From an uncultured Planctomycetota bacterium (GTDB lineage Bacteria > Planctomycetota > Brocadiia > CAIUPP01): a stretch of DNA of 50,071 bases. Positions within the stretch are counted from its first letter, which is position 1, and each line of letters begins with the position of its first letter. The position numbers and the translations under genes were made by a program. Below, piece after piece: positions 17,001-38,537 of this stretch. Below the pieces are notes generated by a model, which worked only from the letters and a program-made list of their open reading frames with translations, ran no database searches and was not told where the DNA came from. The DNA lies in NCBI GenBank assembly GCA_903901045.1, contig CAIUPP010000091.1, forward strand, positions 1 through 50,071, written 5' to 3'.

Positions 17001-17452
17001 ACCATGGAGCCGACGCGCGTGGACTGGTGCACCGGGTTTTCCATCGGGGTTTCAAACGTCCACGTGCTCCCCGTAACGCCGTTGCGGTTCACGCGCCACA
17101 TGTAGCGCTTGCTGTTGGCCGCCAGGCAGTTGACTTCCAGGCTGGTCGCCCGATACGTGAATGGCTGCGACCCAACGACGCTCTTGGTGAAAAGCTGAGA
17201 CGTCTGGAGAATCGTGAGCGGATCGTCCTGTCTCCAGAGATAGATACGGTAGGTGGTGCCGATGGGGTCGGTGGGAGCGTCAAACGTGAGGTCGCGGTAG
17301 CCGAAGGAACTCCCCTCCGGCTGCACACTGACGGACGCGCCCGGGCGCGGGTTGGGGAAACCGACCTGCGCGAAAGCGCCCGGCGCGAGCAGCGCGACGG
17401 CCAGCAAGCTCAACAGAACCAGGGAAACCGGACGGAAGTGCGTGCGGAGCAT
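11024..17452 (-). CDS. Giant secreted protein: gingipain (C25)-like domain, Fn3-like repeats, CFI-box C-terminus
   Basis: The product has 2142 residues. The start (MLRTHFRPVSLVLL) has AAGGA 7 bases upstream and begins a clear signal peptide ending ...PGAFA. Two Fn3-like modules are followed by a region (about 380-860) with C25 peptidase hallmarks: VMLIGDADRIAP, TDFFYSTQDDT, PRYQVGRIPV, and a late TVFGATLLADPAILLP. Where the family has GHG before the catalytic His I see LTRADNQRW (about 629), and the Cys strand reads LLVSAAADTARFDN (about 684), so the catalytic pair appears lost. A large middle region follows. Seven modules of about 95 residues then repeat (LSW..GA.SYDVYL... YYWKVRSVN... FTFTT). 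A Gly-rich run leads into CFIATSAFES (about 2044) and a helical tail, the CFI-box-CTERM pattern. Adjacent gspC suggests T2SS export, which is an inference. Confidence 0.8.
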   Translation of the reverse strand: MLRTHFRPVSLVLLSLLAVALLAPGAFAQVGFPNPRPGASVSVQPEGSSFGYRDLTFDAPTDPIGTTYRIYLWRQDDPLTILQTSQLFTKSVVGSQPFTYRATSLEVNCLAANSKRYMWRVNRNGVTGSTWTFETPMENPVHQSTRVGSMVRFVWNDTPLRAAVGAVTEKMLLIRRSDPNVPDGWLIGSPTPAFNAAAVVKTYNPQVSDYRSNLREFWWSDPGYTRLQEGRSYRWRVVYCNKDGAPLSIVDANNNNAYISLAWADGGGDYDEGWDFTVVNEVSYLSSGTVKSVIVYWQSMYGTLARDPEEQDVTFSSIANRYKDIQENVHKPSVATVVVGTEELAASYGDFHYDQAALTACTAQQALVPTIPQWPGWDTMDVATKNTNGFSYSRPGSYVLSEQEKYESWVARGLRTWLQDAANRNGFGTNNDYAWLENLQHVMLIGDADRIAPSFYYDDTSFQSNQWIATDFFYSTQDDTATVKTIPRYQVGRIPVRQKGYPTIDQFGSSYDPPIPVLAKTQAYVAGLGDANGKTAAYNNWFGRAVVVAGATYHGQWFQFFPAVAEYLLTQRIQIGNNSFRDTFAGLGVHKYDIFGEAGTNEALTTSNIKKNLADPTQASDVPGFVYMLTRADNQRWWEYTGNNAGQAFMLWPPTSSFETDPEKDIDTSVFSAAYTDAAAGRRPLLVSAAADTARFDNAIFNSDDPAIFSMGEAGTLAPGGPIGTVGFASGYYSTSVTYQRTFAEGNEGITWTGGTDEREGYLYASINQGVVVDTPQNSESSQILLGKSELVCDFANEYAKTNMPTLGGLFNNAMASYLSRHTTDLMANEPRVTTTVFGATLLADPAILLPLRVRPNQDNSRPVVTDVNPRMPTLSDPTLPSYNTQSMPVHIVPHMVTYDANGGVDVTLRIQTDADNVRIRVITPFRQNSSNNPGVWNDQRTVGNGADPINWSWDTAQDREVRATSINQATYTFNAKAPSIYLMVVQAENPKWQTGDDEDWRWLQERWIYVQVVNAFQRSSDSGTNILVLDGDQMDRYYLGGNYHEDVEEWYVHPAKDDAGYDGGDDPVDYTHEPALSVLNKELGPDIGATSKYKYQYWCTNVYQTELGNALEMRQAQRFMGDIYMGGLNSFLTSKGTVVYFTGDASLNPPEGYLFLRELMEVNDISFLTNYINGGGRLLLSNQNMVYDAGVPFVTPFQHTILGAISRTGDTDYTNMDGLKPNTMSASITDLNIVGGTGNDAGQDNAEWTGEVDPNGIEALTLFTWSDAFGPGTTTGSKSSGVSNRILDGGGRTIYFTWPFEAIWTLGTVDPGSTGRANTMRQAIDWLRSVPKASNPVPADLATAVSLSQVLSWSLVPEAANYRLYLVAEDQANLEQPANLHDNIPRDNPRFAPGAPLLKNTRYFWRVDTKNVDDYTIGDVWSFKTVDDAPQASTPTPADQATQVPLDQVLSWYLDPLVDSYDLTIWKDGVALPTVTGLTTASYTPTGGLEPNRVYTWRVDTRNELGLTTGIVWTFYSLTPPPPPGNPPNPGDNALGVATNQKLSWTATPRTDSYDIFIWVAGDQGPADPPAGDPFNGTTPDPTTFNKWSGRSTTNSFIPGELPVSSNLNWQVRPVNIAGRQNGLDAGGADTGLLHTWTFSTVATVADPVASANPIYPPDGAFGVGVSPTLSWERGQGASAYNVFFWPGDQPEPTTPRASGLTSPTLAIAGPLVIGKLYKWQVVALNSTGTQAPGAIWTFTVGAAKVTGMTPGNGAVGVAVDVTLDWNDAQGASSYNVYIAEGATGVLALAANVTDSDFTPDQPLKALTTYRWRVDSVADDGVTVTTGDIFSFTTTTLSGPPKAVTNMKPLNGTLNIGPFVTLSWTGGAGAVTYDVYLGANALPGVPNNSYPSTVTQVINTTALSPNTVYYWKVRSVNAQGFADSPTFSFTTMGLPDAVVGMKPFDGTLNVVTNVILKWQKAKGATSYSLFLGANALPAAPTVTGLSPLLTQYQTSSLAASTLYYWKVRSVNDMGFTDSPVFTFTTGTGIGTGTTGGGGGGGGCFIATSAFESAAPGAGDRTEINFTGLYSISPERIGQLNQIRDLRDSLLLPLAAGRDFSAWYYAVGPHAADAIRHNEPAKAAVRKALLDPLSQCSRRLCE
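11046..11340 (-). other. CFI-box-CTERM region of the giant secreted protein
   Basis: A run of eight Gly codons is followed by CFIATSAFES and about 90 residues including IRDLRDSLLLPL and AVRKALLDPL. Known CFI-box tails have G-rich linker, CFIATAAYGS and an RxFRDxxL helix. Their role as a sorting or anchoring signal is proposed rather than proven. Confidence 0.7.
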
Positions 17453-17560
17453 AGGGATTCCTTCCATTGGTGCAGGCGGGGTCACGAGCGCATCTGTGTC
17501 GGTACGAAACTGCACATTACGCCTCGCGAATGAACGATACGAAGCCCAACATAACACATG

Positions 17561-23418: not shown

Positions 23419-23811
23419 TCACCCCGCCTCCCCCGGCTCCTTCGGCACGACAATCAGCACCAGCCCGCGCCGGACCAGGTTGCGCAGGAAAATGGTGAGC
23501 GAGGCCTCCGCCTCTTTGCGGCTGAGCTTGTATCGCGCGGCCACGCGTTCCACCATCTCGCGGATGGCAAGGGAGCCGTCGCACAGGTCCCAGACGAACG
23601 TGCCGACTTCGTCCAGCTCGAACTTCGCGTCGCTGGGGGGCACTTTAAGCCAGCGGCAGAGCCGCTCGACCAGGGGGGAGGCGCGAAATGGAACGTACAG
23701 TGTGGCGACGTCGTCCGCGTCGCGCTCCACCCGCACCGCCGGGCTGCGCAGGGCGCGCGCGCCGAGGGATTGAATGCGCGTGAGCTCCGGTTTCTTCTTG
23801 CTCCAAAACAT
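23419..23811 (-). CDS. PqqD-family peptide-binding protein (orphan RRE)
   Basis: The product has 130 residues. The start MFWSKKKPEL has GGAG 7 bases upstream; longer frames run into repeat DNA. After a basic N-terminus and a beta segment (VATLYVPFRASPLVERLCRWL), the C-terminal two thirds match PqqD/RiPP-recognition elements: KFELDEVGTFVWDLCDGSLAIREMV then a winged-helix segment ending LVRRGLVLIV. PqqD proteins usually deliver precursor peptides to radical SAM or other modifying enzymes. No such enzyme or precursor is visible nearby. The downstream-transcribed position after the two-domain gene at 24110 suggests a partnership with that protein. Confidence 0.75.
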   Translation of the reverse strand: MFWSKKKPELTRIQSLGARALRSPAVRVERDADDVATLYVPFRASPLVERLCRWLKVPPSDAKFELDEVGTFVWDLCDGSLAIREMVERVAARYKLSRKEAEASLTIFLRNLVRRGLVLIVVPKEPGEAG

Positions 23812-24109
23812 CCGCTTGCTCCGACTACAAGGCCTTTCACGGCAAGGGCGTAATCCCTCAGTTACCGTGGGAGACGGCGCGAACACCGGTCGCACCGCTC
23901 GAACGCTGGGGACACAAAACTTCGCTCCGCAAAGTATTGTGTCCCCAGTTCGCGCGCCCTGCGTTCCGCCCGCCAAGACCAGGCGCTCCGCTCTCGCGCC
24001 GTGGGTGGCGCGGACTATCAGTCCGCGTCCCGCGCCGCAGGCGCGGGAAAGTCAGCGGAAGAACGCACGATGATCGCGGGTTGGATGACCCGCGCCACAT
24101 TGCCAGATC
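23812..24109. repeat. Palindrome-rich spacer
   Basis: The gap carries at least three hairpins: the GGGACACAAAACTT element at 23906-23948, CGCGGACT-ATC-AGTCCGCG at 24009-24027, and CCCGCGCC-GCA-GGCGCGGG at 24029-24047. No gene is supported. Confidence 0.8.
23906..23948. repeat. GGGACACAAAACTT hairpin, copy 1
   Basis: There are 20-base arms around TCC. Eighteen of 20 positions pair. An A-A mispair sits in AAAACTT opposite AAGTATT, exactly as in the copy at 42861-42897. Confidence 0.8.
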
Positions 24110-25000
24110 TTAGCCTTCACTGCCTTCATGGCATTGCACGGCGCGAACCACGTCCCCCGCCTCCTGCTCGGCGGAATCCGGCCCCAGCCAGCGCACGGCG
24201 ACCAGCGAATTGGCCTCGGGGCAGTGCCAGGCAAGGCCGCGGATGAGCCGCCCGCGCAGCAGCCAGCGCCGCACGGAACGCCGCTCGCGGCTGGTCCAGC
24301 CCAGCGCCGGATGCCCGAGCCACTCCTTCTCCGCGTACTCCGTCTTGAGGCCGCCGGGGCCGATGATCTTGTCCGCCTCGATCCAGTCGCGCAGGCTCTT
24401 CTTTTTCAGCCAGATGTCCGCCAGCGAGGAACGCACGATATGCGCGATGCGGTTGCGCGCGCGGAACTCGAACTGCAACCGCCCGGCGCGCACGGCGTGG
24501 TCGAACAGCCGCCACGCCTCCGGCATGTCGAAGCGGAAACCATACGCCGCCCACGGCACGCGCCCCTCGACGGGATGGTCGCACCAGGAAGCGAACATCT
24601 CCTGCAGGACGGGCTTGAATTTCTCCTCCGGGTCGTACACCGCGCGCAGCAGCGCCACCCGCCCGCAGGTCGAGCAGCACGCCGCCATATGCATCGAGTC
24701 GCGCTCCCCCTTCACCAGGAAGAACTCGGTGTCCATCCCCGGCACGCTGACGAGGCGGACATCGCGCCGGAGTTGCACGTCGCGCTGGTTGAGTTTGGCC
24801 TTGCGGATGTAGGCCTCGGCCACGCTGCGCGCCGTGCTGGAGGAGCGCCCGAGCTGCCAGCGGATGTCCAGCCGGGCATACTCGGCGTCGTCGAGGCGGC
24901 AGTGCCCGCTCCGGGCATCGCCGTCAGCAGCGCCCATCTCCCAATCGGCGGGGACCTTGAGGCGAATGCCCTGCCAGGCGAATAGCGTCCATGAACTCAT
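24110..25000 (-). CDS. Two-domain hypothetical protein paired with PqqD
   Basis: The product has 296 residues of unknown function. Two related halves can be seen. The first begins FAWQGIRLKVPADWEMG with RLDDAEYARLDIRW. The second begins AAYGFRFDMPEAWRLFDHA with GRLQFEFRARNR. Each has the form hydrophobic strand, (V/M)PxxW, then a strand with an acidic/aromatic pattern, reminiscent of PsbP/Mog1-like folds. No signal peptide or membrane helix is seen, so it is probably cytoplasmic. The start MSSWTLFAW has AGGA 6 bases upstream. It precedes the PqqD gene on the same strand and follows the exporter operon after a repeat element. Confidence 0.65.
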   Translation of the reverse strand: MSSWTLFAWQGIRLKVPADWEMGAADGDARSGHCRLDDAEYARLDIRWQLGRSSSTARSVAEAYIRKAKLNQRDVQLRRDVRLVSVPGMDTEFFLVKGERDSMHMAACCSTCGRVALLRAVYDPEEKFKPVLQEMFASWCDHPVEGRVPWAAYGFRFDMPEAWRLFDHAVRAGRLQFEFRARNRIAHIVRSSLADIWLKKKSLRDWIEADKIIGPGGLKTEYAEKEWLGHPALGWTSRERRSVRRWLLRGRLIRGLAWHCPEANSLVAVRWLGPDSAEQEAGDVVRAVQCHEGSEG

Positions 25001-25020
25001 GGTGGTTCCTGCGGAAAGCA

Positions 25021-25174
25021 ACGGATTCAACGTTCAACATCCGACGTCCAACGTCCAACGTCCAACGTTCAAAGCAAGGCATGCCCTCGCGCGAACCGTT
25101 GGTTGTCATTCGTTGCCGTTCCTTGAACGTTGAAAGTTGAGCGTTGAGCGTTGAACGTTGGAAGTTGAATCCGT
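25021..25174. repeat. Inverted period-7 element (TTCAACG / CGTTGAA type)
   Basis: Perfect 11-bp ends, ACGGATTCAAC (25021-25031) and GTTGAATCCGT (25164-25174), enclose two converging heptamer arrays. The left array has seven units such as TTCAACG and TCCAACG; the right has GTTGAAA, GTTGAGC and so on. The right end abuts the last base of the ABC ATPase gene. A degenerate family-1 core (GCAAGGCATGCCC) lies at 25074. Confidence 0.85.
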
Positions 25175-25915
25175 TCACTGGTGTCCATCGATCGTGCCGA
25201 CGGTGATCTTGAGGTCGGCGCGGCGTTCGAGCCGCTCGATGGCGCCGTCGCGGATCCAGGCGACGCGGTCGCACAGGTTCAGCATCTTGTGGTCGTGGGT
25301 CGCGCTGATGACGGTGACGTGCAGCTCCTGGCTCAGCTTCTTGAGCAGGTGGATGATCTCCTCGCCGGTATGCAGGTCCAGGTTCGCCGTCGGCTCGTCC
25401 GCCAGCACGATAGCCGGGTCGTTGGCCATGGCGCGGGCGATGGCCACGCGCTGCTGCTGCCCGCCGGACATGCGCCCGGGGCGGTGGAAGATGCGCTCCC
25501 CGAGCCCGACGCGCTCCAGAATGCGCGCCGCCTTGTCCAGCGCGGTATCCTCATCCACGTTGGCGAAGAGCATCGGAATCTTGACGTTCTCCAGCGCCGT
25601 CAGCGTCGGCAGCAGGTTGAAGGACTGGAAGATGTACCCGATCTTGCGGCAGCGCATCCAGGCCAGTTCGTAGGCGTCCAACTGCGCGATATCCACGTCG
25701 TCGATGAACACCATCCCGTCGGTCGGCTTATCCAGCCCCCCGATCATGTTGAACAGCGTGCTCTTGCCCGAGCCGGAGGGGCCCATGATGGCGAGGAACT
25801 CGCCGCGGAAGATGTCCACGCTCACCCCGCGCAGCGCGTGCACCACTTCCTGCCCGCGGGAGAACTCTTTCCTGACGTCGATGGCGCGCACGACGACATC
25901 CTGGACGGTAGCCAT
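25175..25915 (-). CDS. ABC exporter ATPase, LolD/MacB type (ATPase 1)
   Basis: The product has 246 residues. It energises FtsX-type permeases of the MacB/LolCDE class. All motifs are intact: Walker A GPSGSGKSTLF (about 45-55), Q-loop region around IFQSFNLLP, signature MSGGQQQRVAIARAM, Walker B VLADEPTANLD, and a switch His in SATHDHKML. It follows the mini-FtsX stop directly (TAAATG) with GGAGG 5 bases upstream. It is the last gene of the six-gene operon. A second, paralogous ATPase is encoded two genes upstream. Confidence 0.93.
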   Translation of the reverse strand: MATVQDVVVRAIDVRKEFSRGQEVVHALRGVSVDIFRGEFLAIMGPSGSGKSTLFNMIGGLDKPTDGMVFIDDVDIAQLDAYELAWMRCRKIGYIFQSFNLLPTLTALENVKIPMLFANVDEDTALDKAARILERVGLGERIFHRPGRMSGGQQQRVAIARAMANDPAIVLADEPTANLDLHTGEEIIHLLKKLSQELHVTVISATHDHKMLNLCDRVAWIRDGAIERLERRADLKITVGTIDGHQ

Positions 25916-26593
25916 TTATTCCTCCACCCGCAACGCTTCAACCGGGCGCATCCTGGCGGCCAGCAGCGCGGGGTAGCCCGCTCCCACCAGGCAGAGGAAT
26001 ATCCCGGCGACGAAGCTGAGGCCCGAGTACACCAGCATGGAAGCCATCGGCATATAGCTGAAGGCGTACCCGCCGAATTGCAGCAGGCCGATCAGGAAGG
26101 TCAGCGCCAGCCCCGTCACGATCCCCACCAGCGAGCCGACCACCCCCATGAGCGAGGATTCGATCAGGAACAGCTTGACCACCGTGCTGTCCTCCGCGCC
26201 GAGGCACTTCATCGTGCCGATCTCGCGGAAGCGCTCCGTGACGGACATGAGCATCGCGTTGGCGATGCCGACGGTGCAGGTCAGCAGCGCCATCACCACC
26301 AGCCAGCGGTCCACCGGGTTGCCCAGGCGCACTTGGTCCGGGTTGATATTGGCCTGCCGCAGAAGGGTGAGCACCGCCTCGGCATCGCTGCCGGCCAGCG
26401 CCCGGATGAGCGCGCTGCTCACCCCGCTGTACGTCAGGTACGCGATGGCCAGAATCACGCTGATCAGCGTGACCAGCGAGCGCGTGATGCGCACCCGCAG
26501 CCCCGCCATCGCCAGCTGGAACAGCGTCTTGTTGGGCAAATGTGAGCTCTCGCTGCTCAATATCGCCAGCAGTTCTTCCGGGGTTTCGCTCAT
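25916..26593 (-). CDS. Minimal FtsX-family permease
   Basis: The product has 225 residues and four transmembrane helices: about 38-61 (LVTLISVILAIAYLTYSGVS), about 98-120, about 140-168, and about 187-215. The FtsX core is clear in GIANAMLMSVTERFREIGTMKCLGA and the final AGYPALLAARMRPVEALRVEE. The loop between helices 1 and 2 is only about 35 residues, whereas MacB, LolC and LolE carry a large periplasmic domain of roughly 200 residues there. It overlaps the upstream ATPase gene by ATGA, and a dedicated second ATPase follows, so the unit is ATPase-permease-ATPase. Confidence 0.88.
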   Translation of the reverse strand: MSETPEELLAILSSESSHLPNKTLFQLAMAGLRVRITRSLVTLISVILAIAYLTYSGVSSALIRALAGSDAEAVLTLLRQANINPDQVRLGNPVDRWLVVMALLTCTVGIANAMLMSVTERFREIGTMKCLGAEDSTVVKLFLIESSLMGVVGSLVGIVTGLALTFLIGLLQFGGYAFSYMPMASMLVYSGLSFVAGIFLCLVGAGYPALLAARMRPVEALRVEE

Positions 26594-27318
26594 GTGATGC
26601 TCCCGACCTGGATCTTCAGGTCCTCGCGCCGGACGATCTTCTCAATCCGTCCCCCCACCACCGTCACCACGCGGTCGCTCACCGAAAGCATCTTGTGATC
26701 GTGCGTGGCGCTGATGACGGTGACGTGCCGCTCATGGCTGAGCCGGCTGAGGTTCTCGATGATCTCCTCGCCGGTGTGCAGGTCCAGGTTGCCGGTCGGC
26801 TCGTCCGCCAGGATGATGCTGGGATCGTTGACGAACGCCCGCGCGATGGCCACGCGCTGCTGCTGCCCGCCGCTGAGCTCGTCGGGGCGGTGGTGCAACC
26901 GCTCGCCCAGACCCACCTGACCCAGTTGCACCGCCGCGCGGTCGCGCGCCTCGTTCTGCGGCAGCCCCAGCAGCAGCGCCGGCAGCGCCACATTGTCCAG
27001 CGCGGTCAGCACCGGAATCAGGTTGTAGCTCTGGAAGATATACCCCACCTTGCGGCAGCGCAGCCGCGCCGCGATGTGGCTGGGCAGCTTCCCCATCGCG
27101 TGCCCCAGCAGCGTCACCGTCCCGCGCGTGGGGCTGTCCAGCCCCCCGATCATGTTGAACAGCGTCGTCTTCCCCGAGCCGGAGGGGCCCATGATGGAGA
27201 CGTACTCCCCGCGCTGGATCTTCAGCGAGATCCCCTGCAACGCGCGGACGATCTCCCCCCCGATCCGGAATTCCCGGTGCACGTCCTGAACTTCCACGAC
27301 CACTTCGGACTCTGTCAT
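26590..27318 (-). CDS. ABC exporter ATPase, LolD/MacB type (ATPase 2)
   Basis: The product has 242 residues. Walker A GPSGSGKTTLF, IFQSYNLIP, signature LSGGQQQRVAIARAF, Walker B ILADEPTGNLD and SATHDHKML are all present, so it should be active. It is clearly paralogous to the ATPase at 25175-25915 (shared FNMIGGLD and DLHTGEEII segments). It overlaps both neighbours by ATGA. It may serve the long M28-like/FtsX permease while ATPase 1 serves the mini-FtsX, or the two may form a heterodimer; the sequence does not decide this. Confidence 0.93.
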   Translation of the reverse strand: MTESEVVVEVQDVHREFRIGGEIVRALQGISLKIQRGEYVSIMGPSGSGKTTLFNMIGGLDSPTRGTVTLLGHAMGKLPSHIAARLRCRKVGYIFQSYNLIPVLTALDNVALPALLLGLPQNEARDRAAVQLGQVGLGERLHHRPDELSGGQQQRVAIARAFVNDPSIILADEPTGNLDLHTGEEIIENLSRLSHERHVTVISATHDHKMLSVSDRVVTVVGGRIEKIVRREDLKIQVGSIT

Positions 27319-30065
27319 GGCTGGTACCGGTTAATGTCTATGGAGACTTTCGACAAGCCGAGGAGGAAAGCCATCAGCGACCAGAAGAAACAGGCCGCCA
27401 GCTCTCCGAAGAGCAGGCCGATGAACATCGGCCGCACCTTGGCGAACATATGCCGCCCGCCATACTTGACCGCCAGCTTCTTGCAGAGCCAGCCGACGAA
27501 GAAACCAAACCATAGCTGGCACATCAGCGGGTTGGCCATCATGGCGAAGCCGATCGGGTGCAGCCACCAGAAGAAGCGCCGGCGCATGATGACGCTCAGA
27601 AGGATCCAGCCGATGCCCAGAAGGTAGAAGATCCAGTTCGAGCCGCCCAGGCCGCCGGTCGAGCCGCTGACCAACTGCTGCGTCTGGCTGAAGATGTACC
27701 GGGGACCGGAGGTGAAGAACCAGGAGTTCGAGGAGTGGTTGGCCCCGACGGCGTAGACGAAATACAGCAGGGCGACCGCGGAAACCAGCACCGTGACGAC
27801 GATGGAGCTGATGACGATGGCGTGGAACCAGCGCCGGCTCGCGCGCGACTCCTCCTGCATCTTGAAACTGTTGATCACCGAGGGAGCCAGGTAGGTCTTG
27901 ATTTCGAGGAACAGGATCGAGTAGATGGGCATCAGCGGCGCCAGGACGGCGGGCGGAACCACGGTCTTCACCGCCCCGCCCTTGAGCAGCAGGCCGTTCG
28001 CGATCTTCGTCAGGTGGAACGGCCCGGTGTGAATCTGGAACCAGTACACCCCGCCCTCGGCCACGACGCGCATCAGCCCGACCGTGACCAGAATCACGAT
28101 GGCCATGAAGAGCAGCGACCAGGGCATCGGCACATTCGCCCACCAGAGCCAGCACAGCGTGATGATCATGCTCGCCAGGAAGATCACGCCGCCCCAGCCG
28201 AAATTCCGGGCGCAGCGCCAGAGCAGCGCCCCCTTCGACGGGGTCGCGCTCAACATCGCCCCGCCGGCCCCCAGCGCCCCCGCGAGTTGGTCGCGCGCCT
28301 GCGAGTACTTGTCCATCACCAGCTTGCCCAGCGTCACCCCCGCGAAGGCGAGCAACCCGCCGGCCCCCAGGCTGCTGACGAAATGGTTCTCCCAAATCCA
28401 GTCGCTGCTGAAGGACCTCACGGAGGCCCCGACGGCGGCGCGGATCGCTATGAAGAACAGGAACAGGCCGAACAGATGGTATATCCAGAGGCTCGCGCTG
28501 ATCTCCAGCGGCAGCAGGAAGCCGATGCCGATGGCGACAAAGCTCACCAGCACCACCAGCCCCGGCTGCGTCGAGTCGGCCAGCCCCTTGAAGATGGAGT
28601 TGTTCAGCATCACGCGCAACTGGCCCTGATCCACCCCCAGATGCAGCGGGTTGAGGCCGCGCAGCCATTCCGCCTGGGCGGCGGCATTGTAGCTGAGCAG
28701 GAGGAAGACAAAGCCGAAACCGCACCAGAACAGGCCGCTGCGCAACGTGGAACTGAGCGAGCCGGGGGGAGCCCCCTCGTCATGCATCACATCCTCGGGC
28801 AGCCGCGCCAGCGGGAACACCAGCTTCTCGCGCCGCGCCCAACTGTCGTACATCATCATGGAAAGGCTGTAGAACATCAGGTAGATGGCGAAGACGAAGA
28901 TGAACCAGAGCGCCAGCGGCTTCACCCAGACGGCCCACGGAATCGCCTTCCACAGGTTGACCCCCGGCTTGAACCCCTCGCGATACTCCTGCACGCGCGG
29001 AACGTCGCTGATGAACAGCGCCGGGTTCAGGTACGGGATGACGTCCTTGTCCCAGCGGGCCTGCGGGATGTTCATCGCCGGGTCGTGCGGCGTGGCTATC
29101 AGCGGGATCAATTGGTCCATGAGGCCGAAGGTGCAGATGCCGGCTGTCACGAAGAGCGCGGCGAACATGGCCATCAATTCGCCGCGGTTGAACGGTCCCA
29201 GCCAGCGGAACGGCCGGTGGCACTCCTCGGGCTTCGAGGCCACGTGGTGGAGCAGGGTGAACAGAATGAATCCGGCGAAGGCAAGCTGGGTCATGAAGAA
29301 GAAACCGTTGGCCGCGTGCCCCAGCAGCGCCAGGAAGGCCAGCAACTGGGCCCCCAGGAAAATCGCCAGGCCGGCGAAACGCGCAACGCGCGAACGCACC
29401 AGGAGCGAGGCGCCCACCGCCACCAGGATTGCGCCCAGGTCCAGCAGCACGGCGATGCCGGCGAACCGCGCAAATGCCAGGTCGTCCGGGGAGGCCAGCG
29501 TCGCGCCGCAGAAGAACGCTTTCAGCGCCGGGAAGAGGCCGATCTTGGCCACGATGGCGCCCGGCAGCGGATACGGCAGGAACAGCCCCACCGCGATCGC
29601 CTGCGCCCCGATGGCCGCCGCGCCCACGATCAACCCAAGGCTCAGCGGCCTGCGGAACGCCATGCGCGCGGCTATGATCGCCGCCACCCCCAGCACGGTC
29701 AGGCGCAGCCCGGCCTGGCTATCCGCTTGGTGACCGGGGATGAACGGAACCAGCATCAGCACCAACTGCGCGCCGCACAGCGTCATCGCCAGCGCCGCCG
29801 GCCACCAGAGCCGCAGCAGCGGGTTCAGCAGCAGCGTCAGCCCCAGCAGGAACGCAAAGGAGATGACCGGGATCTGCGTCGCGATCGGGTAGATCGGGGT
29901 CGGGTTGAACTCGAACGTGTAGTCCAGAAGCACCTGGCCGACCGAGAGCAGCACCGCCAGCGGCAGCACGATCCACCAGCGGATGTGCAGCGCCGGCCGC
30001 TCCGCAAGCTGGATCTGCTCCATCCGGTCCGCGTCGATGCGATTGAATGTCCCGTTCTCTGCCAT
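27315..30065 (-). CDS. Large polytopic membrane protein, DUF6785/DUF6784-like
   Basis: The product has 916 residues and roughly 18-20 hydrophobic segments. The chosen ATG (MAENGTFNRI) has GGGAAG just upstream and lies 13 nt after the previous stop. A short cytoplasmic N-terminus precedes IRWWIVLPLAVLLSVGQ. The pattern ELMAMFAALFVTAG, then a periplasmic loop with YLNPALFISDVPRVQEYREGF, then IPWAVWVKPLALW and MYDSWARREKLVFPLARLP resembles DUF6785 proteins as I remember them; a profile search was not possible. Function is unknown. It lies inside the exporter operon and overlaps ATPase 2, so it is likely a subunit of or substrate handler for that machine. Confidence 0.8.
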   Translation of the reverse strand: MAENGTFNRIDADRMEQIQLAERPALHIRWWIVLPLAVLLSVGQVLLDYTFEFNPTPIYPIATQIPVISFAFLLGLTLLLNPLLRLWWPAALAMTLCGAQLVLMLVPFIPGHQADSQAGLRLTVLGVAAIIAARMAFRRPLSLGLIVGAAAIGAQAIAVGLFLPYPLPGAIVAKIGLFPALKAFFCGATLASPDDLAFARFAGIAVLLDLGAILVAVGASLLVRSRVARFAGLAIFLGAQLLAFLALLGHAANGFFFMTQLAFAGFILFTLLHHVASKPEECHRPFRWLGPFNRGELMAMFAALFVTAGICTFGLMDQLIPLIATPHDPAMNIPQARWDKDVIPYLNPALFISDVPRVQEYREGFKPGVNLWKAIPWAVWVKPLALWFIFVFAIYLMFYSLSMMMYDSWARREKLVFPLARLPEDVMHDEGAPPGSLSSTLRSGLFWCGFGFVFLLLSYNAAAQAEWLRGLNPLHLGVDQGQLRVMLNNSIFKGLADSTQPGLVVLVSFVAIGIGFLLPLEISASLWIYHLFGLFLFFIAIRAAVGASVRSFSSDWIWENHFVSSLGAGGLLAFAGVTLGKLVMDKYSQARDQLAGALGAGGAMLSATPSKGALLWRCARNFGWGGVIFLASMIITLCWLWWANVPMPWSLLFMAIVILVTVGLMRVVAEGGVYWFQIHTGPFHLTKIANGLLLKGGAVKTVVPPAVLAPLMPIYSILFLEIKTYLAPSVINSFKMQEESRASRRWFHAIVISSIVVTVLVSAVALLYFVYAVGANHSSNSWFFTSGPRYIFSQTQQLVSGSTGGLGGSNWIFYLLGIGWILLSVIMRRRFFWWLHPIGFAMMANPLMCQLWFGFFVGWLCKKLAVKYGGRHMFAKVRPMFIGLLFGELAACFFWSLMAFLLGLSKVSIDINRYQP

Positions 30066-30078
30066 GACTTCCCGTATT

Positions 30079-32091
30079 TCAGTACAAGAGCGTTTCAATG
30101 GACTTTGCGATCAGCGCGATACCGACTCCCGCCATCGCCATGAGGCCCAGCCCGCAGATGAATCCCGCCAGCACGACCGGCACGATCTGACGCCAGCGCT
30201 TCACGCCGAACTTGCGCTGGAAGAAGTAGCGGCCGATGAGCGCGCCGATGAACTCTCCCAGCAGGTTGCCGGGGCTCATCTGCCCGATGCCGCGGACGAG
30301 CCCGAAGATAATGAACGTCGGCAGGTTGCATACCATCAGCAGCAGGTATCCGAAGACCCCGATCGCCGCGCCGATTGTCAGGTACGACGGGTTGAGCGCC
30401 TCCAGGAACCGCGAGCCCCCCGTCATGGTCGACGTGTAGGTCAGGCAGGAGTTCAGCGCCTGCAAGCGCCAGACTTCCTGCGTGAAGGGGTACGCTTCGG
30501 AGGGGATGGGTCCCAGCCGCCAGATGAATTCACTGAACAGCAGGCTAGCCACGATGATCACCGGGATGGTCACCAGTTCGGTCTTGATCAGGCTGGTGAA
30601 CTTCGTGCCGGTGAGCTCCACCACGCGGAACATGCGCGTCTCCGCGCCGTAGTCCATGATGGGGATCGGCACGAACCAGATGGCCACGCCGCGATAGCCC
30701 GAGAGGATGAACGCCGCCTCGCGCACCAGCGGAATCGCCACCGCCTGCCCCACGAGCCCTTCCAGCTTGGCCGAGACGTAACTGATCAGCGGGGTGTAAA
30801 TGAAGGCGAATATCAGGAAGAACATCGTGGGGAATCGGTCCCCGCTCCCCCCGCTCATGCTGTTGATCATCCAGCGGCTCAGGAAGATGTACATGAACGT
30901 GCTGACGACGTAGATGGCAATGCTGATCCAGATGGGGATGTCGCCGCGCAGCCGGTTGTAGCGGAACGCTTCCAGCAGGCTGTGCGATTCCGCCCCCACC
31001 GCCGTGGAGCCGGTGCGCTTGCGAATCCAGCGCATCAGCAGCGGCCCGACCGTCGTCCCGATGCTGATCAGGAAGATGGCGAACGTCAGCCCGATGCTCA
31101 ACGAGAGGTAGAAGTCGATCTGGTTGCTGTACAGCGTGTCCACCAGACCCATCCCCTCCTGCCACGTCGGGAGGTACCCGTAGTGATACAGAATGGGGTT
31201 GGCGATCATCGTCAGCACCACCCCGATGAACCCGCCGACCGCCGCCCAGAAGGGCAGCACCATACCGGTGACCACCAGCGTCAGGTCGAAGACCAGGTTG
31301 AGCGGAGTGGCCGGCAGTATCTTCTCAGTCTTGGCGGTCAGGTCGAGCCAGGGGATCGGCAGAAGCTGGTACGGCGTGCCCAGGAACGAACCGGTGAACG
31401 AGGGGATGCCGATGTAGATCAGCCCGAACACCAGCCCGATCATGCCGCCGATGGCAAACACGGTCCATCGCCCCCGCGTGCGCTGCTCGCGGTCCTCCGC
31501 CAGCACCACCACCCCCTGCGCATCCACCGGAGCCATCGGGTACGGCAGCTTCTCCCCGTGCGCCGTGAGCCGGTACAGCGCATAGCCGAGGCCGAAACCG
31601 TTGATGCGCGTGATGAGCAACTGGAAGCTGATCAGCAGGATCGGGTAGAGCCAGTACTTGTTGAAGAAGGTATTGCCGGTTTGGCGGATCGTCTCGGCGG
31701 AGGGGGCGCACCAGACCGGGATCTCCGAGGAGATGCCCATCGCCTGCGCCACGTCGGACTGCACCAGGTACTGCGTCCAAAGCAGCCCCTGGAAGGGCGT
31801 GGCCAGGGCGACGCCCGTCATGTAGAACAGGATGAACACTTCCTGCTGACGCAGGCTCTTGAGCGAGCGGCGCGCCACCTCGGCGAAGAGGATCACCGTC
31901 ACCCAGCGCGCGGCCGGCCCCAGCCCCGCCCCCATGAAGAGCATCAGGTACATCGACCCCGGCAGCATGAACAAGCCGAGGAAGAGCGCGCCGATGATGG
32001 TCTTGCCGCTGAACCCGTCCTCGAACGTCGAGGGGGGCGTCATGACCTCCCGGAGCATCTGAACTTCTTTTTCCTGGCGGCCCTGGCTCAT
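30079..32091 (-). CDS. Polytopic membrane protein, OPT-transporter-like pattern, function unknown
   Basis: The product has 670 residues and about 14-16 hydrophobic segments. The ATG overlaps the upstream stop (ATGA), with GGAG 11 bases before it. The segment HGEKLPYPMAPVDAQGVVVLAE and the Gly-rich helices (ALFLGLFMLPGSMYLMLFMGAGLGP; PGNLLGEFIGALIGRYFF) recall oligopeptide-transporter (OPT) or DUF6785-type proteins, but I cannot place it firmly. The following gene encodes a larger protein of similar topology, so the pair may be two arms of one channel. It sits between the M28-like/FtsX fusion and the two ATPases in one overlapping operon. Confidence 0.75.
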   Translation of the reverse strand: MSQGRQEKEVQMLREVMTPPSTFEDGFSGKTIIGALFLGLFMLPGSMYLMLFMGAGLGPAARWVTVILFAEVARRSLKSLRQQEVFILFYMTGVALATPFQGLLWTQYLVQSDVAQAMGISSEIPVWCAPSAETIRQTGNTFFNKYWLYPILLISFQLLITRINGFGLGYALYRLTAHGEKLPYPMAPVDAQGVVVLAEDREQRTRGRWTVFAIGGMIGLVFGLIYIGIPSFTGSFLGTPYQLLPIPWLDLTAKTEKILPATPLNLVFDLTLVVTGMVLPFWAAVGGFIGVVLTMIANPILYHYGYLPTWQEGMGLVDTLYSNQIDFYLSLSIGLTFAIFLISIGTTVGPLLMRWIRKRTGSTAVGAESHSLLEAFRYNRLRGDIPIWISIAIYVVSTFMYIFLSRWMINSMSGGSGDRFPTMFFLIFAFIYTPLISYVSAKLEGLVGQAVAIPLVREAAFILSGYRGVAIWFVPIPIMDYGAETRMFRVVELTGTKFTSLIKTELVTIPVIIVASLLFSEFIWRLGPIPSEAYPFTQEVWRLQALNSCLTYTSTMTGGSRFLEALNPSYLTIGAAIGVFGYLLLMVCNLPTFIIFGLVRGIGQMSPGNLLGEFIGALIGRYFFQRKFGVKRWRQIVPVVLAGFICGLGLMAMAGVGIALIAKSIETLLY

Positions 32092-35000
32092 CGGGCGACG
32101 TTCTCCTTCACCGGGAACTCACGCGCGGCGGCGAACATCGCCTCGCCCTGGATGCGGAACTGCTCCTGGTTGGCCAGCGATTGGGAGCGCCAGCTCAGCA
32201 GCCGCGCGCGCAACGACTCCATGAAAGGCTGGTTCACCACCAGCCAACTGCTCCGGTCCCCCTTCACGCGGGTGACGTGGACGCACAGCACGTGCGCGCG
32301 CACGCGCTGCACGTAATGCCCGTAGATCTCCAGCCGCTGGTTCACCCCCAGGTCGAACGGCACCGGGGTGATGCTGTAGAGCATGGTCCGCACGTTGCGC
32401 CCCTCGCGGTCGCGCACGAAACCGAAGCGCGCGTCCTGCGCCAGGAACTGGCCGGAGGAGGCCTCGCTGTTCAGGTCCATGAAGGCGTGGAGGAACGCGC
32501 ACACCCCCGGCAACTGCTCCTCGCTGAAGCTGAACGGGAAGTCCAGCCGCAGCTCATCCCCCTCGGGCGCGGGCAGCTTCCAGCGCCTCTGACCCGACGG
32601 GACCGACGCGCGCGTGGCGACGTACGCCGGATACAGCGTGCTCACGATCACCGTGACGATCGACGCGAAGATCACCCCGATCACCGCCATGCTGGAGTAG
32701 TTCAGCGGCATCCCCGGCAGCCAGTTGTAATAGCTGATCAGCAGCGCCAGCCCCTGGCCGATGACGTACCCGCTCACCGCCCCCACCAGGCCGAACACGA
32801 TCGCCTCGGCCACGAAGAAGACGAAGACGTGCGTCGGGTTCAGCCCGATGCTGTTGTACACGCTGATTTCCTTCTTGCGCTCCATCACCGCGCCGAGCAT
32901 GGTGTTCAGGATAATCGTGGCCGCCAGGCAGATCGGGATGAGCACCTTGCTGACCCCGCCCACGCTGGTACCGCGCGCCGGCCCCAGACTGTACTGGGCG
33001 GCGCTGATGCTCGCCCCCTGCTCCGGAGTAATCTTCTCGGTGATCCCCGTGTAGGTGAGCGTGCCGGTGGCGTCCACAAAATGGTTCGCGGCTTTCCAGG
33101 CGCGCAGGCTGGCGGATTCCCCGCCCTGCGCATCCGCCTTCACGGCGATGGTGCGCACCGTCGTGTCCGGCAGCCTCAGGGCGAAACCAATCGGCAGCAG
33201 CACGCAATTGACCGCGCGCAGCGCGCTGGCCGCCGGAACGGGGCTCGCCGTGGCATCCTCGGCGCTGACGCTCATCTGCCCGGTCTCATTCACCGACTTG
33301 GTCACCGGATCGGGCCGGCTCTCCAGCGGAAGCAGCGGGAGCTTCGCCAGGTCGGTCATCGCCGAAAGCTTCTCATCATCCAGCAGGCCGACCAGCGTCA
33401 CCTTCTCGTTGCGCAGGTACAACTCGCGCGGCGTAAAGTTCGCCGGGGTGATCCCCAGAATGCCGGCCGCCTCGGTCGAGAGGAGCATCTCGCGCGCGTC
33501 GCCGCTGCTGAACCAGCGCCCCGCCGTCAGCGGCATGGGAGCGATGAAGCCGTTCTCGGCCATCTCCACCCCCAACAGGCTCTTGGCGACGATGAGGTTC
33601 TTCGGGTTCTGCGCGTCGATGACCTCCAGCCGCAGGTAGTCGCCCAGGCCGTCCAGGCGCTGCGTCCAACTGCGCATCACCACCTGGCCGTACGGGCGCA
33701 GAACCTGCGAAATCTGCCGCTGCGCGCTTTCCCGGATCGGCTCCATCCCCGGCTTGGCGAACAGCACCCCGGCGTACGGAACGTTCGGTTCCGTCTGGCG
33801 CCGGTAGGGCGTCAGCGAGGTCCCCACGCTGATGACCGACAGCATCGTGAAGGTCACCAGCACGATCGTCGCCGCGGTCAGCGAGGTGCGAATGCGCCGC
33901 CGGCGCATGTTGTTCACCCCCACCGAAAAGGCCACCCCCGCCAGCGCCTTGCGCGAACTCTCCGCCGATTCCACCCCCTGCGACTCTTCCACAAGCTGCT
34001 TCAGCCCGCTATCGAAGCGCCCGTGCAGAATGAACATGACGAACACCGCCAGCCCCACCATCATGAACGCCAGCAGCACCATCATCGGGGTCTGCGAAAG
34101 GCTGAAGGCCGGGTGCAGCAGCGCCAGCGCCGTGGCCATCAGCGCGAAGATGATCAGGAAGCTTCCGATCTGCGCGCGCACGTCGGTCCACGGGATCACC
34201 AGCTTCATGGCGAACATGCAGAAAGGAATGACCAGCGCCAGGAACACCGCCACCGCCTTGATCAGGTCGCTGGTGGTGTCGCGCACCATGCGATAGGAGC
34301 GCAACGAACTGCTCAGCGCCTCAATCGCCTTGCTGAGGAAGAGGCTCTGGTCTCCCGCGCCGCGGGCCTGATCGGCTTGGACGATCAGCCCCTGCGCCTG
34401 CTTGAACAGGAGCGCGGCGGCGGGGTTGGTCACCCCCTTCTTCTCGATGCGCCCGAGCCGCATGGCGTTCAGCGTCTGCAAGTCCGCCGCGGCGGTGGTG
34501 GTGATCATCCCCAGGCGCTTGTCGCCGGGGAAGAAGCCGGCGCCGGTGGGGTTATCCTTGGTGGCGTTGATGAGGATGAAGTCGTCGGAAACGATCTTGA
34601 ACGGCACGTAGCCGTCGGTGAAGATGCAGGCGATCCCCTCTTCCCCGGTGATCGGCTTGAACTTAGCGGAGCGCGTCTCCGCGATCCCCGCGATGCCGTA
34701 GTGGTCGGGGCTGGCTTCGCGGATGGCGTCCAGCAGGATGATGCTGGGGGTGCGCACGCGCGTCCCCGGATTGTACGTGCCAACCAGGTCGGTCTGAATG
34801 CAATCGAACATCAGGCAGAACTGGTCCGCCCAAAGCCAACTGGATCCGGCCTGCGGGATGTTGGGGTCTACGCGGCGCGCCCCCGCGCCCGCGTCAATGA
34901 CGGCGCTGAGGCCGCTGAAGTCCTCCTTGAAACCATACGCCTCGATGCAACCCACCGCGGGGATGGCCCGGAAAAGCGCCTCCCCCTGCCGGTTCGACAG

Positions 35001-37076
35001 GGCGATCTGGTAGAGGCAGACCTGTCCGTAGACGGCGCGCGGCAGCGGCTCCAGGAGCACGGCGGAGGCGCTTCGCGGAAGAACCTGCCCGGGCACCACG
35101 ACCACCGCGCCGCCGACGAGCGGCTCGCGCGGAATCTCGACCGAGTACGGATCGATCCGGCGCAATTTGTAGCGGAAGGAGACCACCCGGTAATTCGTGA
35201 GGCGGACCGGACGAATGGCCGTCGGAAATTCTTCGCTGGCCAGGAGGCCGGTGATCAGCTTCTGGGCGAACGCCATCATCCCCGCCACGCGCTCGCGCGG
35301 CAGTTGGGCCAGCGTATCGCGCGGCGTGAACTGGATATTGCGCGGGTCGGCCGTGGTGGTCAGGGTCAGGCTGGGGATCGCCTGGTTGTCCCCTGCCGAG
35401 CAGGCCAAGGGGAATTTGTCGGCCAGGTGGTTGTGCCAGTCGATGCCGCCCGCGCTCAGAATGGTATTGGCGAAGAACCGTTCGCCGTCCTTCAACTGCT
35501 TGGCGACCTCCACGGCGACGCGCGCGGCCGGCTTGCATTCCTCAAGCTGGATGGTCCAGGGAACCTCCGGCCCCTGGGCGAAGAAGCCCATCCGCTCATT
35601 GCCGAAGCTCAGGTCCAGCGAGAGATAGAGGTAGACGCTCTTCCCTTCCAGTTGTCTGGCCAGCCGGCCGTTCTCGTCGATATCGCGGATCGCGCGATCG
35701 GCGTCCTGGAACTGCTCCTGGTAGCGCGCGTGAATCGCGGCCATGTCGGCGCGGAACATCGCCTGCCGGCGGGCCAGCACCGCCCCCTCCCCCATGTTCT
35801 CGAAGGTGGAAGTGCCCCCCCAGCGTTGAAGGACGGAGGCCATGGCGATGTAATCGTCCCGCACCTCCGCCAGCCGGTCCCGCTCCGCCTTGACCTTCGC
35901 CATCTGATCGGCAGGCAGATCGGTGCGGTGCAATTGGTCTTCGGCCAGCGCAATGCTGTGGCGCGCCCGGTTGCGCTCGTACTCGAACCGGCGCAGCAGC
36001 GGCTCTTTCAGGAACAGCGTGCGGCCGCTCTCGTCGGACTGGGCCGCGCGCAGCAGGGCGATCTTCTCCGGCGTGCGGTTCTCCGGGCCGTACACCGCGG
36101 CGAAGAACTTCGCCTCGCGCAGGTCGCGCTCGCGCGAGTCCAGTTCATCGCTTTGCGTGGGCGGGAAGGGATACGCGGCGGCCAGGAAAAACTGCTCGCC
36201 GCGCAGGTAGTTGCAATGATCGCTCACCGCGCTGAAGACCAGGGTGACATCCGGCGGGTTGGCCTTGTAGTAATCCAGCAGGCGCAGCAGCAACGCCAGG
36301 CTGCACGCGCTCTCCGCCCCGAAACTCAGGTCGGGCGCCACGCAGGAAGCGTCCTTGAACGCCTGCAGGTGCACCACCTTGTCCGCGTTCGGCCCGGTGC
36401 CCGGCACGATCACCCAGTCGTCGGCCCCCTCGATCGACTCCCATCGATTCGGGCGCGTCTGGGTCAGCGTCACCTCGGCGCCGCGCGACTCCCCCAGCGC
36501 GGCGCGCAGCGTCGCGGCATCCTGCTCGGTCAGGTAGAAACGCGGCACGCTGATCGGCGTGGGATAGACCACCCCGGAGGCGTCGCGCCCGGTCTCCTGC
36601 CCGCCTGCGAAAATGAGCGCCTGCGCGCCCAGCTCCAGCGCCGTCACCCACGCGCGCCGGCTGTTCATGTCCAGAAGCACCGCCGCGTTCATCGGGCTGG
36701 CCACCGCCAGATCCTCCGCCGTCCCCTTGCGCAGGTCCACCAGCTTCCCGCTCCAGAGGCCGTTGGGCAGATTGCCGGGGTGAATGCTGTTGGGCATCAG
36801 GCTGTGCAGCGGAAGGGTTGCTCCGCCGGGGAGCGTGAGTTGAGTTTCGCCGGGGACGAAAGCGACCGTGGGGAAAGTGATCTGCCCGCTCGTGAAGCCG
36901 CTCTCTCGGAAGCGCTTGGCTACATATTCATCCAGCGCCTTGCGGCCCGGAGAGCCCATGTTGCGGATGGGCGCAATCTGCAGAAGTTGCTCGACGTCCG
37001 GCAGGTCAGATTCAGCGGCGCACAGCGGAAGGCCGATGCTCAACAGGATCAGTAACGGCGCAACCCAATGCTTCAT
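32088..37076 (-). CDS. Signal peptide - degenerate M28 peptidase-like domain - FtsX permease fusion
   Basis: The product has 1662 residues. A signal peptide (about 1-21, LLILLSIGLPLCAA) leads to a PA-like segment and an M28-type alpha/beta domain (about 230-620): VVHLQAFKDASC, FGAESACSLALLLRLL, VTLVFSAVSDHCNYLRGEQFF, and later PLACSAGDNQAIPSLTLTT. Active M28 enzymes show AHYDS, GADDNASG, an EE pair and SDH; most of these ligands are replaced here, so catalysis is doubtful. Membrane helices appear at about 940-1030 and 1065-1085. A periplasmic domain follows, then the FtsX core (about 1375-1490) with GAVMERKKEISVYNSIGLNPTHVFVFF. A soluble tail of about 150 residues closes it. It is the first gene of the six-gene operon. 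Confidence 0.85.
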   Translation of the reverse strand: MKHWVAPLLILLSIGLPLCAAESDLPDVEQLLQIAPIRNMGSPGRKALDEYVAKRFRESGFTSGQITFPTVAFVPGETQLTLPGGATLPLHSLMPNSIHPGNLPNGLWSGKLVDLRKGTAEDLAVASPMNAAVLLDMNSRRAWVTALELGAQALIFAGGQETGRDASGVVYPTPISVPRFYLTEQDAATLRAALGESRGAEVTLTQTRPNRWESIEGADDWVIVPGTGPNADKVVHLQAFKDASCVAPDLSFGAESACSLALLLRLLDYYKANPPDVTLVFSAVSDHCNYLRGEQFFLAAAYPFPPTQSDELDSRERDLREAKFFAAVYGPENRTPEKIALLRAAQSDESGRTLFLKEPLLRRFEYERNRARHSIALAEDQLHRTDLPADQMAKVKAERDRLAEVRDDYIAMASVLQRWGGTSTFENMGEGAVLARRQAMFRADMAAIHARYQEQFQDADRAIRDIDENGRLARQLEGKSVYLYLSLDLSFGNERMGFFAQGPEVPWTIQLEECKPAARVAVEVAKQLKDGERFFANTILSAGGIDWHNHLADKFPLACSAGDNQAIPSLTLTTTADPRNIQFTPRDTLAQLPRERVAGMMAFAQKLITGLLASEEFPTAIRPVRLTNYRVVSFRYKLRRIDPYSVEIPREPLVGGAVVVVPGQVLPRSASAVLLEPLPRAVYGQVCLYQIALSNRQGEALFRAIPAVGCIEAYGFKEDFSGLSAVIDAGAGARRVDPNIPQAGSSWLWADQFCLMFDCIQTDLVGTYNPGTRVRTPSIILLDAIREASPDHYGIAGIAETRSAKFKPITGEEGIACIFTDGYVPFKIVSDDFILINATKDNPTGAGFFPGDKRLGMITTTAAADLQTLNAMRLGRIEKKGVTNPAAALLFKQAQGLIVQADQARGAGDQSLFLSKAIEALSSSLRSYRMVRDTTSDLIKAVAVFLALVIPFCMFAMKLVIPWTDVRAQIGSFLIIFALMATALALLHPAFSLSQTPMMVLLAFMMVGLAVFVMFILHGRFDSGLKQLVEESQGVESAESSRKALAGVAFSVGVNNMRRRRIRTSLTAATIVLVTFTMLSVISVGTSLTPYRRQTEPNVPYAGVLFAKPGMEPIRESAQRQISQVLRPYGQVVMRSWTQRLDGLGDYLRLEVIDAQNPKNLIVAKSLLGVEMAENGFIAPMPLTAGRWFSSGDAREMLLSTEAAGILGITPANFTPRELYLRNEKVTLVGLLDDEKLSAMTDLAKLPLLPLESRPDPVTKSVNETGQMSVSAEDATASPVPAASALRAVNCVLLPIGFALRLPDTTVRTIAVKADAQGGESASLRAWKAANHFVDATGTLTYTGITEKITPEQGASISAAQYSLGPARGTSVGGVSKVLIPICLAATIILNTMLGAVMERKKEISVYNSIGLNPTHVFVFFVAEAIVFGLVGAVSGYVIGQGLALLISYYNWLPGMPLNYSSMAVIGVIFASIVTVIVSTLYPAYVATRASVPSGQRRWKLPAPEGDELRLDFPFSFSEEQLPGVCAFLHAFMDLNSEASSGQFLAQDARFGFVRDREGRNVRTMLYSITPVPFDLGVNQRLEIYGHYVQRVRAHVLCVHVTRVKGDRSSWLVVNQPFMESLRARLLSWRSQSLANQEQFRIQGEAMFAAAREFPVKENVAR

Positions 37077-37533: not shown

Positions 37534-37779
37534 TCAGTCCCATACCAACTCATAGTCGCTGCATCTCAGTTTCCTGCACGCCGCGATGACAGCGGCTTTG
37601 GCCTCGGGGCGGTCGAGCGCGCCGATTTCGACGGTGATCGTTTCATCAAAGAAAGATCTGCCGGAACCAAGTATGCGACCACAATTCGCCTTCTTGAGGG
37701 CAGCCCTGATTGCATTCACCAGTACCGCTTTGTCGTGCTTGCGTGGCAACGTGAAGACATACAGTGCGCCTTCCGTCAT
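37534..37779 (-). CDS. 81-residue hypothetical protein of the nuclease cassette
   Basis: The start (MTEGALYVFTLPRKHDKA) overlaps the nuclease stop as ATGA. The predicted pattern is strand (ALYVFTLP), helix (KAVLVNAIRAALKKA), strand, strand (ITVEIGAL), helix (AKAAVIAACRKL), which looks like a ferredoxin-like alpha/beta domain. Function is unknown. Tight coupling to a PD-(D/E)XK protein suggests an accessory, immunity or regulatory role. A longer frame to 37848 would overlap the nuclease gene by 73 bp and is less likely. Confidence 0.65.
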   Translation of the reverse strand: MTEGALYVFTLPRKHDKAVLVNAIRAALKKANCGRILGSGRSFFDETITVEIGALDRPEAKAAVIAACRKLRCSDYELVWD

Positions 37780-38537
37780 GCGCCGACGTTTGCGGACCAT
37801 GTGAACCTGACCTCCTTTCGTGCCAACTTGGTGAATTTGATGCCGCAATGTGACGGATCTCTAATGACCGTGTGAAAAGGCTGTTCCACGAAGTTGCGGA
37901 CCAGCACGAGATAATATCTTTCGCTGAGTGCGTCCGCCATGTCGTGCTCCAATTCCGTCATCTGAAACTCGCCGCTTTTCGTTCGCATACCCTTCACTTC
38001 CACGGCAAGGAAGGATGCACTCTGCGGCGCGACCAGTTTAAAGTCAAAGCCACAGCCCCATCCCGTCGTGTCAGTCACATTGAGATCGGAGAACTCCGGC
38101 ATATTCTTACAGTTGGCCACAAAGTATTGTTCCGCAGCCTTGCCGGTTATCAGCCTCTTGGCAAAGGAGGATGAGGCCCCGAGTTCATGCGCCCGCAGCA
38201 CTCGTCGTACTTCGGGCGGGGACTCCGCTTCGGCGACAGGGAGCAGGAACCCTTTGACTAGTTCGCCGAGTTCATCAAGGCGGGCATCCCTGTGGACGTC
38301 CAAGACTTGCCGACAATGTTCGCGTAAGGGCCTCTTGTGCCAGCCTCTTCTCTCGTTTGGGAAATACGGGTCGAGTTCATCCCTATAGTTCTTAATGGAG
38401 GCCGGGCGCGCTTGAAGCCCATATCCCAAGGCATTGAAAGCCTCCACAAAGCTCTTGAACCCTAGGTAGGCTAGCCCGGCTTGGTTGAACTTCGAGAGGA
38501 ATAGCCCGCATATGATTTGGCGGTCACGATGGGTCAT
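37776..38537 (-). CDS. DUF3883-like PD-(D/E)XK nuclease
   Basis: The product has 253 residues. The C-terminal half shows the DUF3883/NO VEIN-C type core: GWGCGFDFKLVAP, then FLAVEVKGMRTKSGEFQMTELEHDMADAL and YYLVLVRNF. The D...EVK triad is the PD-(D/E)XK catalytic set, and the following F-x-(L/M)-T-x-x-E helix is characteristic of DUF3883. The N-terminal half (about 1-130) is helical with RDRQIICGLFLSKFNQAGLAYLG and may bind DNA or a partner. DUF3883 domains occur in restriction and defence proteins. No methyltransferase is nearby. Lower G+C than its surroundings and an own promoter suggest horizontal arrival. Confidence 0.75.
   Translation of the reverse strand: MTHRDRQIICGLFLSKFNQAGLAYLGFKSFVEAFNALGYGLQARPASIKNYRDELDPYFPNERRGWHKRPLREHCRQVLDVHRDARLDELGELVKGFLLPVAEAESPPEVRRVLRAHELGASSSFAKRLITGKAAEQYFVANCKNMPEFSDLNVTDTTGWGCGFDFKLVAPQSASFLAVEVKGMRTKSGEFQMTELEHDMADALSERYYLVLVRNFVEQPFHTVIRDPSHCGIKFTKLARKEVRFTWSANVGA

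Follow-up and report, generated by a model that had tools for sequence, protein, structure and literature searches.

The window, that is, the whole stretch of 50,071 nucleotides of planctomycetotal DNA analysed here, contains a gene at 32088..37076 on the minus strand (the strand of all features in the window described below) whose open reading frame and translation give a single chain of 1662 aa, made up of a pseudo-M28/PA ectodomain and an FtsX-type ABC permease. The first 21 residues (37014..37076) are hydrophobic in a hydropathy scan and probably form a signal-peptide-like start. They are followed by the M28-like ectodomain (aa 22-615, 35232..37013), into which two further elements are inserted. 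One is a PA-like domain at about aa 76-215 (36432..36851, boundaries approximate), with near-invariant W143, P178, R179 and W212, and the other, judged from the secondary structure of an AlphaFold2 (AF2) model, is a helical segment at about aa 305-478 (35643..36164), which lies between strands of the M28 core. The core of the permease, which resembles FtsX, MacB and LolCE, occupies aa 1061-1490 (32607..33896). An initial annotation of this DNA had flagged the interval that corresponds to aa 226-626 of the protein, reading it as an M28 domain that had lost its zinc ligands and was fused to an FtsX permease. One homologue of the fused protein, encoded elsewhere (L059, G064:C195, 4640-13750, plus strand), has 3036 aa and is thus almost double the length typical of these proteins.

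The C-terminal half belongs to the type VII ABC permeases, the group of MacB and LolCDE. In a Pfam search of the 1662-aa protein, FtsX (PF02687) was the sole match (aa 1382-1491, 1.6e-13), and the hydropathy scan places transmembrane helices of the FtsX pattern at aa 1066-1084, 1379-1397, 1417-1435 and 1463-1481, with three further helices upstream of it (aa 943-1017). The half thus shows the features by which type VII systems are recognised, an FtsX domain and the succession of one transmembrane helix, a large periplasmic domain and three transmembrane helices. The AF2 model of aa 640-1662 has a pLDDT of 83.6, and Foldseek matches the permease half to the non-canonical ABC permease Spr0694 of Streptococcus pneumoniae (5xu1), to LolC/LolE of LolCDE and to MacB. 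The protein is none of MacB, LolC or LolE proper, as the respective NCBIfam equivalog models give 29.2 of 966, 25.5 of 473 and 23.5 of 362 bits. Given the signal-peptide-like start and the transmembrane pattern, the M28-like part is expected in the periplasm, on the periplasmic face of the permease.

Downstream lies a run of genes that share this strand and overlap or nearly abut one another, from an OPT-like gene to a PqqD-domain gene. The first encodes a membrane protein of 670 aa (30079..32091), a near-constant neighbour of the M28-FtsX gene, and the second a larger OPT-like protein of 927 aa (27315..30098) that matches DUF6785 (PF20581, 2.8e-58) and DUF6784 (PF20580, 5e-21). These are followed by an ABC ATPase of the LolD/YbbA/MacB class (26590..27318), a short FtsX permease of 225 aa (25916..26593; PF02687, 6.2e-18), a second ABC ATPase of the LolD/MacB class (25175..25915), a 306-aa protein of unknown fold (24110..25030) and, at the end of the run, the PqqD-domain protein (23422..23976; PF05402, 1.2e-12). 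With two LolD/MacB-class ATPase genes in the same run, these ATPases would be the partners of the M28-FtsX permease. The 306-aa protein, for which no convincing Pfam or PDB match was obtained, carries the motif WxGI...VPxDW and is kept in at least 21 related loci. Just upstream of the run lies a gene for a NOV_C (PF13020) protein (37776-38537).

The relationship of the ectodomain to M28 enzymes emerges at the level of the family and of the fold. Single-sequence searches of the 1662-aa protein found no M28 in Pfam, and the best phmmer hit against the PDB had E=0.17. A profile built from 52 N-terminal regions, searched against the PDB with E-values that depend on the alignments built in this analysis, matches best the aminopeptidase 2ek8 (2e-31), followed by YwaD/BSAP (1.7e-22), PaAP (4e-12), transferrin receptor 1 (TfR1, 4e-10) and then nicalin and nicastrin; individually, 32 of the 52 members match the Pfam M28 model (PF04389) and 16 the PA model (PF02225). 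The AF2 model of aa 22-655 has a mean pLDDT of 92.6 and superposes (Foldseek, VIA-align) on BSAP (6hc6) with Z 28.1 and an rmsd of 5.2 over 370 residues, on the Aeromonas aminopeptidase with Z 25.7 and an rmsd of 2.4 over 249, and on TfR1 with Z 25.7 and an rmsd of 6.8 over 389. Both the alpha/beta fold (Z 25-28) and profile-level homology therefore assign the domain to M28. The resemblance that the initial annotation had read from a few segments is real, in the profile search as in the structural superposition that it had proposed as checks, and the non-M28 fold that it had named as a refutation was not seen.

In the Aeromonas M28 enzyme, we take the zinc ligands to be His97, Asp117, Glu152, Asp179 and His256, and the general base to be Glu151. 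By profile alignment, the equivalents in the present protein are F240, E255, C288, D488 and F583, with H287 in place of the base; these assignments come from alignments (2ek8, M28 proteins of the same genome and the table of homologues). The former first-ligand motif HxD reads A-F240-K-D242-A, with S as the next residue (36348..36362), so that His has become Phe and Asp is kept. The bridging-Asp motif is F-G-A-E255-S-A-C-S (36300..36323), with Asp replaced by Glu, and the EE motif is S-D-H287-C288-N (36210..36224), with the base Glu replaced by His and the ligand Glu by Cys. The 'LDM' strand of M28 enzymes supplies the fourth ligand, an Asp, which is retained in L-S-L-D488-L-S-F (35604..35624), and the last-ligand motif HTPxD has become Q-F583-T-P-R-D587 (35313..35333), again with Phe for His. 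On balance, three of the five ligands are lost outright (F240, C288, F583), one acid is exchanged for another (E255) and one is kept (D488), and neither the complete set of five co-catalytic zinc ligands nor the Glu base is present. Judged from these residues, the ectodomain is very probably inactive as a zinc peptidase.

The three substitutions listed earlier, of AHYDS by QAFKDAS, of GADDNASG by FGAESACS and of EE by SDHCN, correspond to strings that are present on the minus strand where they had been placed. The accompanying claim that the zinc ligands were gone holds for three of the five and is extended by the exchange of the base, but it overlooked that D488 is kept and that the change to E255 is conservative. 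The late ligand had been sought in the wrong place, an SDH region, being in fact the His of the HTPxD motif. The picture of a dead M28 domain on an FtsX permease was borne out, and the further idea of a binding scaffold that presents substrate to the permease is a possibility. The PA domain, the family-wide extent of the loss, the retained D488 and the OPT-like and PqqD-like neighbours had escaped the initial annotation.

Homologues were gathered from the protein's own class (12 of 75 genomes) and phylum (42 of 392 genomes). A scan of bacterial genomes with the single protein as query found nothing, and with the family alignment it retrieved at least 570 relatives, from which 79 loci were kept. 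Fused homologues occur in Planctomycetota, Lentisphaerota, Kiritimatiellota, Armatimonadota, Latescibacterota, Desulfobacterota and other phyla, and the scan identified Oligosphaera ethanolica DSM 24202 as a named carrier, so that the system is open to experiment. In a table of 134 fused homologues, the Glu152 position holds Glu in 0 of 130 and the His256 position His in 0 of 116, while His is found at the His97 position in just 8 of 129; the position of the base is His in 110 of 130, and the acids of HxD and TPxD remain (D242 in 119 of 129, D587 in 114 of 116). A loss peculiar to this gene was rejected, as the ligand losses are common to the 134 homologues. No intact M28 domain fused to FtsX was found in other phyla, either among these 134 or among 12 fused proteins from 198 genomes of another phylum.

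The initial annotation had itself allowed that misalignment might conceal an intact metal site, a concern to which the identity of a mere 10-18% between the ectodomain and M28 enzymes lends some weight. This explanation is highly improbable, since the 134 homologues agree on motif order, PA insert and spacing, and since the profile, when ordinary M28 proteins from outside the family are aligned to it, puts their ligands in the columns where they should fall. These controls (L208, L223, the 1127-aa L228 and, from the same genome as the window, L188) display HxD...EE, as expected of active M28 enzymes. Taken together, the family-wide loss and the intact motifs of the controls point to a pseudopeptidase of ancient origin, its pocket remodelled but conserved. 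As far as aligned residues can tell, the domain is such a pseudopeptidase, whose co-catalytic zinc site was apparently lost early in the history of the family and whose pocket was kept in changed form. A tree built from 74 domains contains a branch (SH-aLRT 92, not starred) with the fused proteins on one side and other M28 proteins on the other.

A catalysis of an altered kind could in principle persist, relying on H287 together with the acids that are left and on either a mononuclear metal or no metal at all. It would find its residues in E255, H287 and D488, all still present, and in the Asp that stands at position 583 in much of the wider family; the title of PDB entry 2anp calls the Glu151-to-His mutant of the Aeromonas enzyme 'functional', and GHE or GHF takes the place of EE in some M28-like proteins outside the family. 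In the protein's own clade, however, E, Q, N, T and R all occur at position 255 and F or Y at position 583, which leaves D488 as the sole conserved part of a metal site, and the absence of the essential Glu ligand from all 130 homologues compared also weighs against this explanation, which appears improbable. As a separate observation, three M28-like proteins of about 500-580 aa (L226, L224 and L227) are FtsX-free, have GHE or GHF instead of EE and keep the first His. From their motifs, they are possible natural Glu151-to-His variants, and such GHE/GHF proteins may represent steps on the path to the fused pseudopeptidases.

The conservation of the former active site bears on what the domain now does. 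An alignment of 64 ectodomains has His at position 287 in 62 sequences, Asp at position 242 in all 64 and Asp at position 587 in 63. Ranked by information content, these three positions stand at the 99th-100th percentile, whereas the lost or changed positions C288 and E255 reach the 74th-76th percentile; the site has thus been conserved, though in an altered form. Such strong conservation of D242, H287 and D587 within the domain would fit a binding role. A functionless, decaying relic could be suspected from the loss of most ligands, but the long open frames, the strong conservation of the ectodomain in many phyla and the constant neighbours speak so clearly against it that decay was rejected as an account of the domain and is hardly credible.

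The gene neighbourhood was examined in 66 non-redundant loci, retrieved with 4 kb on each side. An OPT-like (DUF6785-related) gene on the same strand lies within 4 kb in 64 of them and within 300 nt in 61. ABC ATPase genes are present in 33 of the 66 loci and a short FtsX gene in 23, counts that refer to the 4-kb window only, and a PqqD-like gene occurs in 33, with all 10 tested proteins exceeding the Pfam cut-off. The recurrence of this gene suggests a link to ribosomally made peptides. Regarding the OPT-like proteins, the copy of the 670-aa protein in the window has no Pfam match, and 5 of its 31 orthologues match OPT (PF03169, best 4.6e-17), as do 2 of 22 DUF6785 relatives; the profiles of the 670-aa family and of DUF6785 match each other (probability 95.8). 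Profiles of the OPT-like and of the ~300-aa neighbours gave no significant solved relative. Of the 75 genomes from the class, 13 carry the 670-aa family, and exactly these also match the profile of the fused ectodomain with E <= 6e-18 (the match in genome G072 being partial); the other 62 yield either matches of 1e-14 or worse, to ~1140-aa proteins of other families, or none. Since the 13 carriers come from a small number of related families, they are not independent of one another.

Based on these associations, the ectodomain can tentatively be seen, at somewhat less than even chances, as the ligand-binding, force-transmitting part of a peptide-handling envelope machine with a transport mechanism, in which the peptide theme would derive from the neighbour genes and the fold. 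The ectodomain, with the PA domain as a lid, would bind peptides or peptide-like ligands without cleaving them; the LolD/YbbA-like ATPases encoded nearby would, by hydrolysing ATP, set it in motion through mechanotransmission; and the ligand would be passed to, or received from, the OPT-like membrane proteins of the adjacent genes. The broader proposal of an undescribed multi-phylum envelope machine, in which the pseudo-M28/PA type VII permease, the OPT-like pair and the PqqD-type protein move a peptide over the inner membrane, is possible but doubtful.

The main rival to this transport reading is a docking or regulatory platform, on which the M28-like domain would recruit a periplasmic partner controlled by the ABC cycle, in the manner of nicastrin and nicalin or of the FtsX loop that holds EnvC. 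Type VII systems do often act on a partner protein, as in FtsEX-EnvC and YbbAP-TesA (PMC12646458). Nicalin and nicastrin are also among the PDB matches of the profile, and the long helical insert could serve as a docking arm. This insert is short or missing in many relatives, as seen in insert-free matches from other phyla, and D242, H287 and D587 are conserved beyond the needs of a pure surface platform; a docking role is, on these grounds, rather unlikely.

The assembly can be compared with several known systems. The PA-bearing M28 aminopeptidases (Aneurinibacillus AP 2ek8, Bacillus subtilis BSAP/YwaD 6hc6 and Pseudomonas aeruginosa PaAP) share the fold, the PA insertion and the order of the motifs, but lack the loss of three of five zinc ligands, the change of the base Glu to His, the permease fusion and the helical insert that mark the present protein. 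TfR1, nicastrin and nicalin are likewise M28-fold ectodomains of membrane proteins, with a PA domain in TfR1. Their ectodomains are non-catalytic, and they differ in being eukaryotic, in having no ABC permease fusion and in having other partners. With type VII ABC systems (MacAB, LolCDE, FtsEX, BceAB and YbbAP-TesA), the protein shares the FtsX-type permease core and LolD/YbbA-like ATPases, and it departs from them in a pseudopeptidase ectodomain in the same chain, additional transmembrane helices and OPT-like partners. The nearest working model is YbbAP-TesA, which couples a type VII transporter to a hydrolase (PMC12646458), whereas here the hydrolase fold is built in yet disabled. Finally, the OPT superfamily (PF03169) is matched by divergent orthologues of the neighbours, whereas no OPT match is obtained for the copies in the window, which are encoded with an ABC gene cluster.

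If the transport reading is true, the protein would provide bacteria with a parallel to the transferrin receptor and nicastrin, a peptidase fold turned into a binding module within an ATP-driven permease and kept over many phyla. Searches for literature on this gene cluster returned nothing, and no paper on DUF6785 or DUF6784 was found in the literature searched, so that the linkage described here offers an initial clue to the function of a large gene cluster that has gone unstudied. Elsewhere in the window, a gene at 11027-17557 encodes a 2177-aa protein with a borderline match to C25 (gingipain-type) peptidases and Ig/fn3-like domains.
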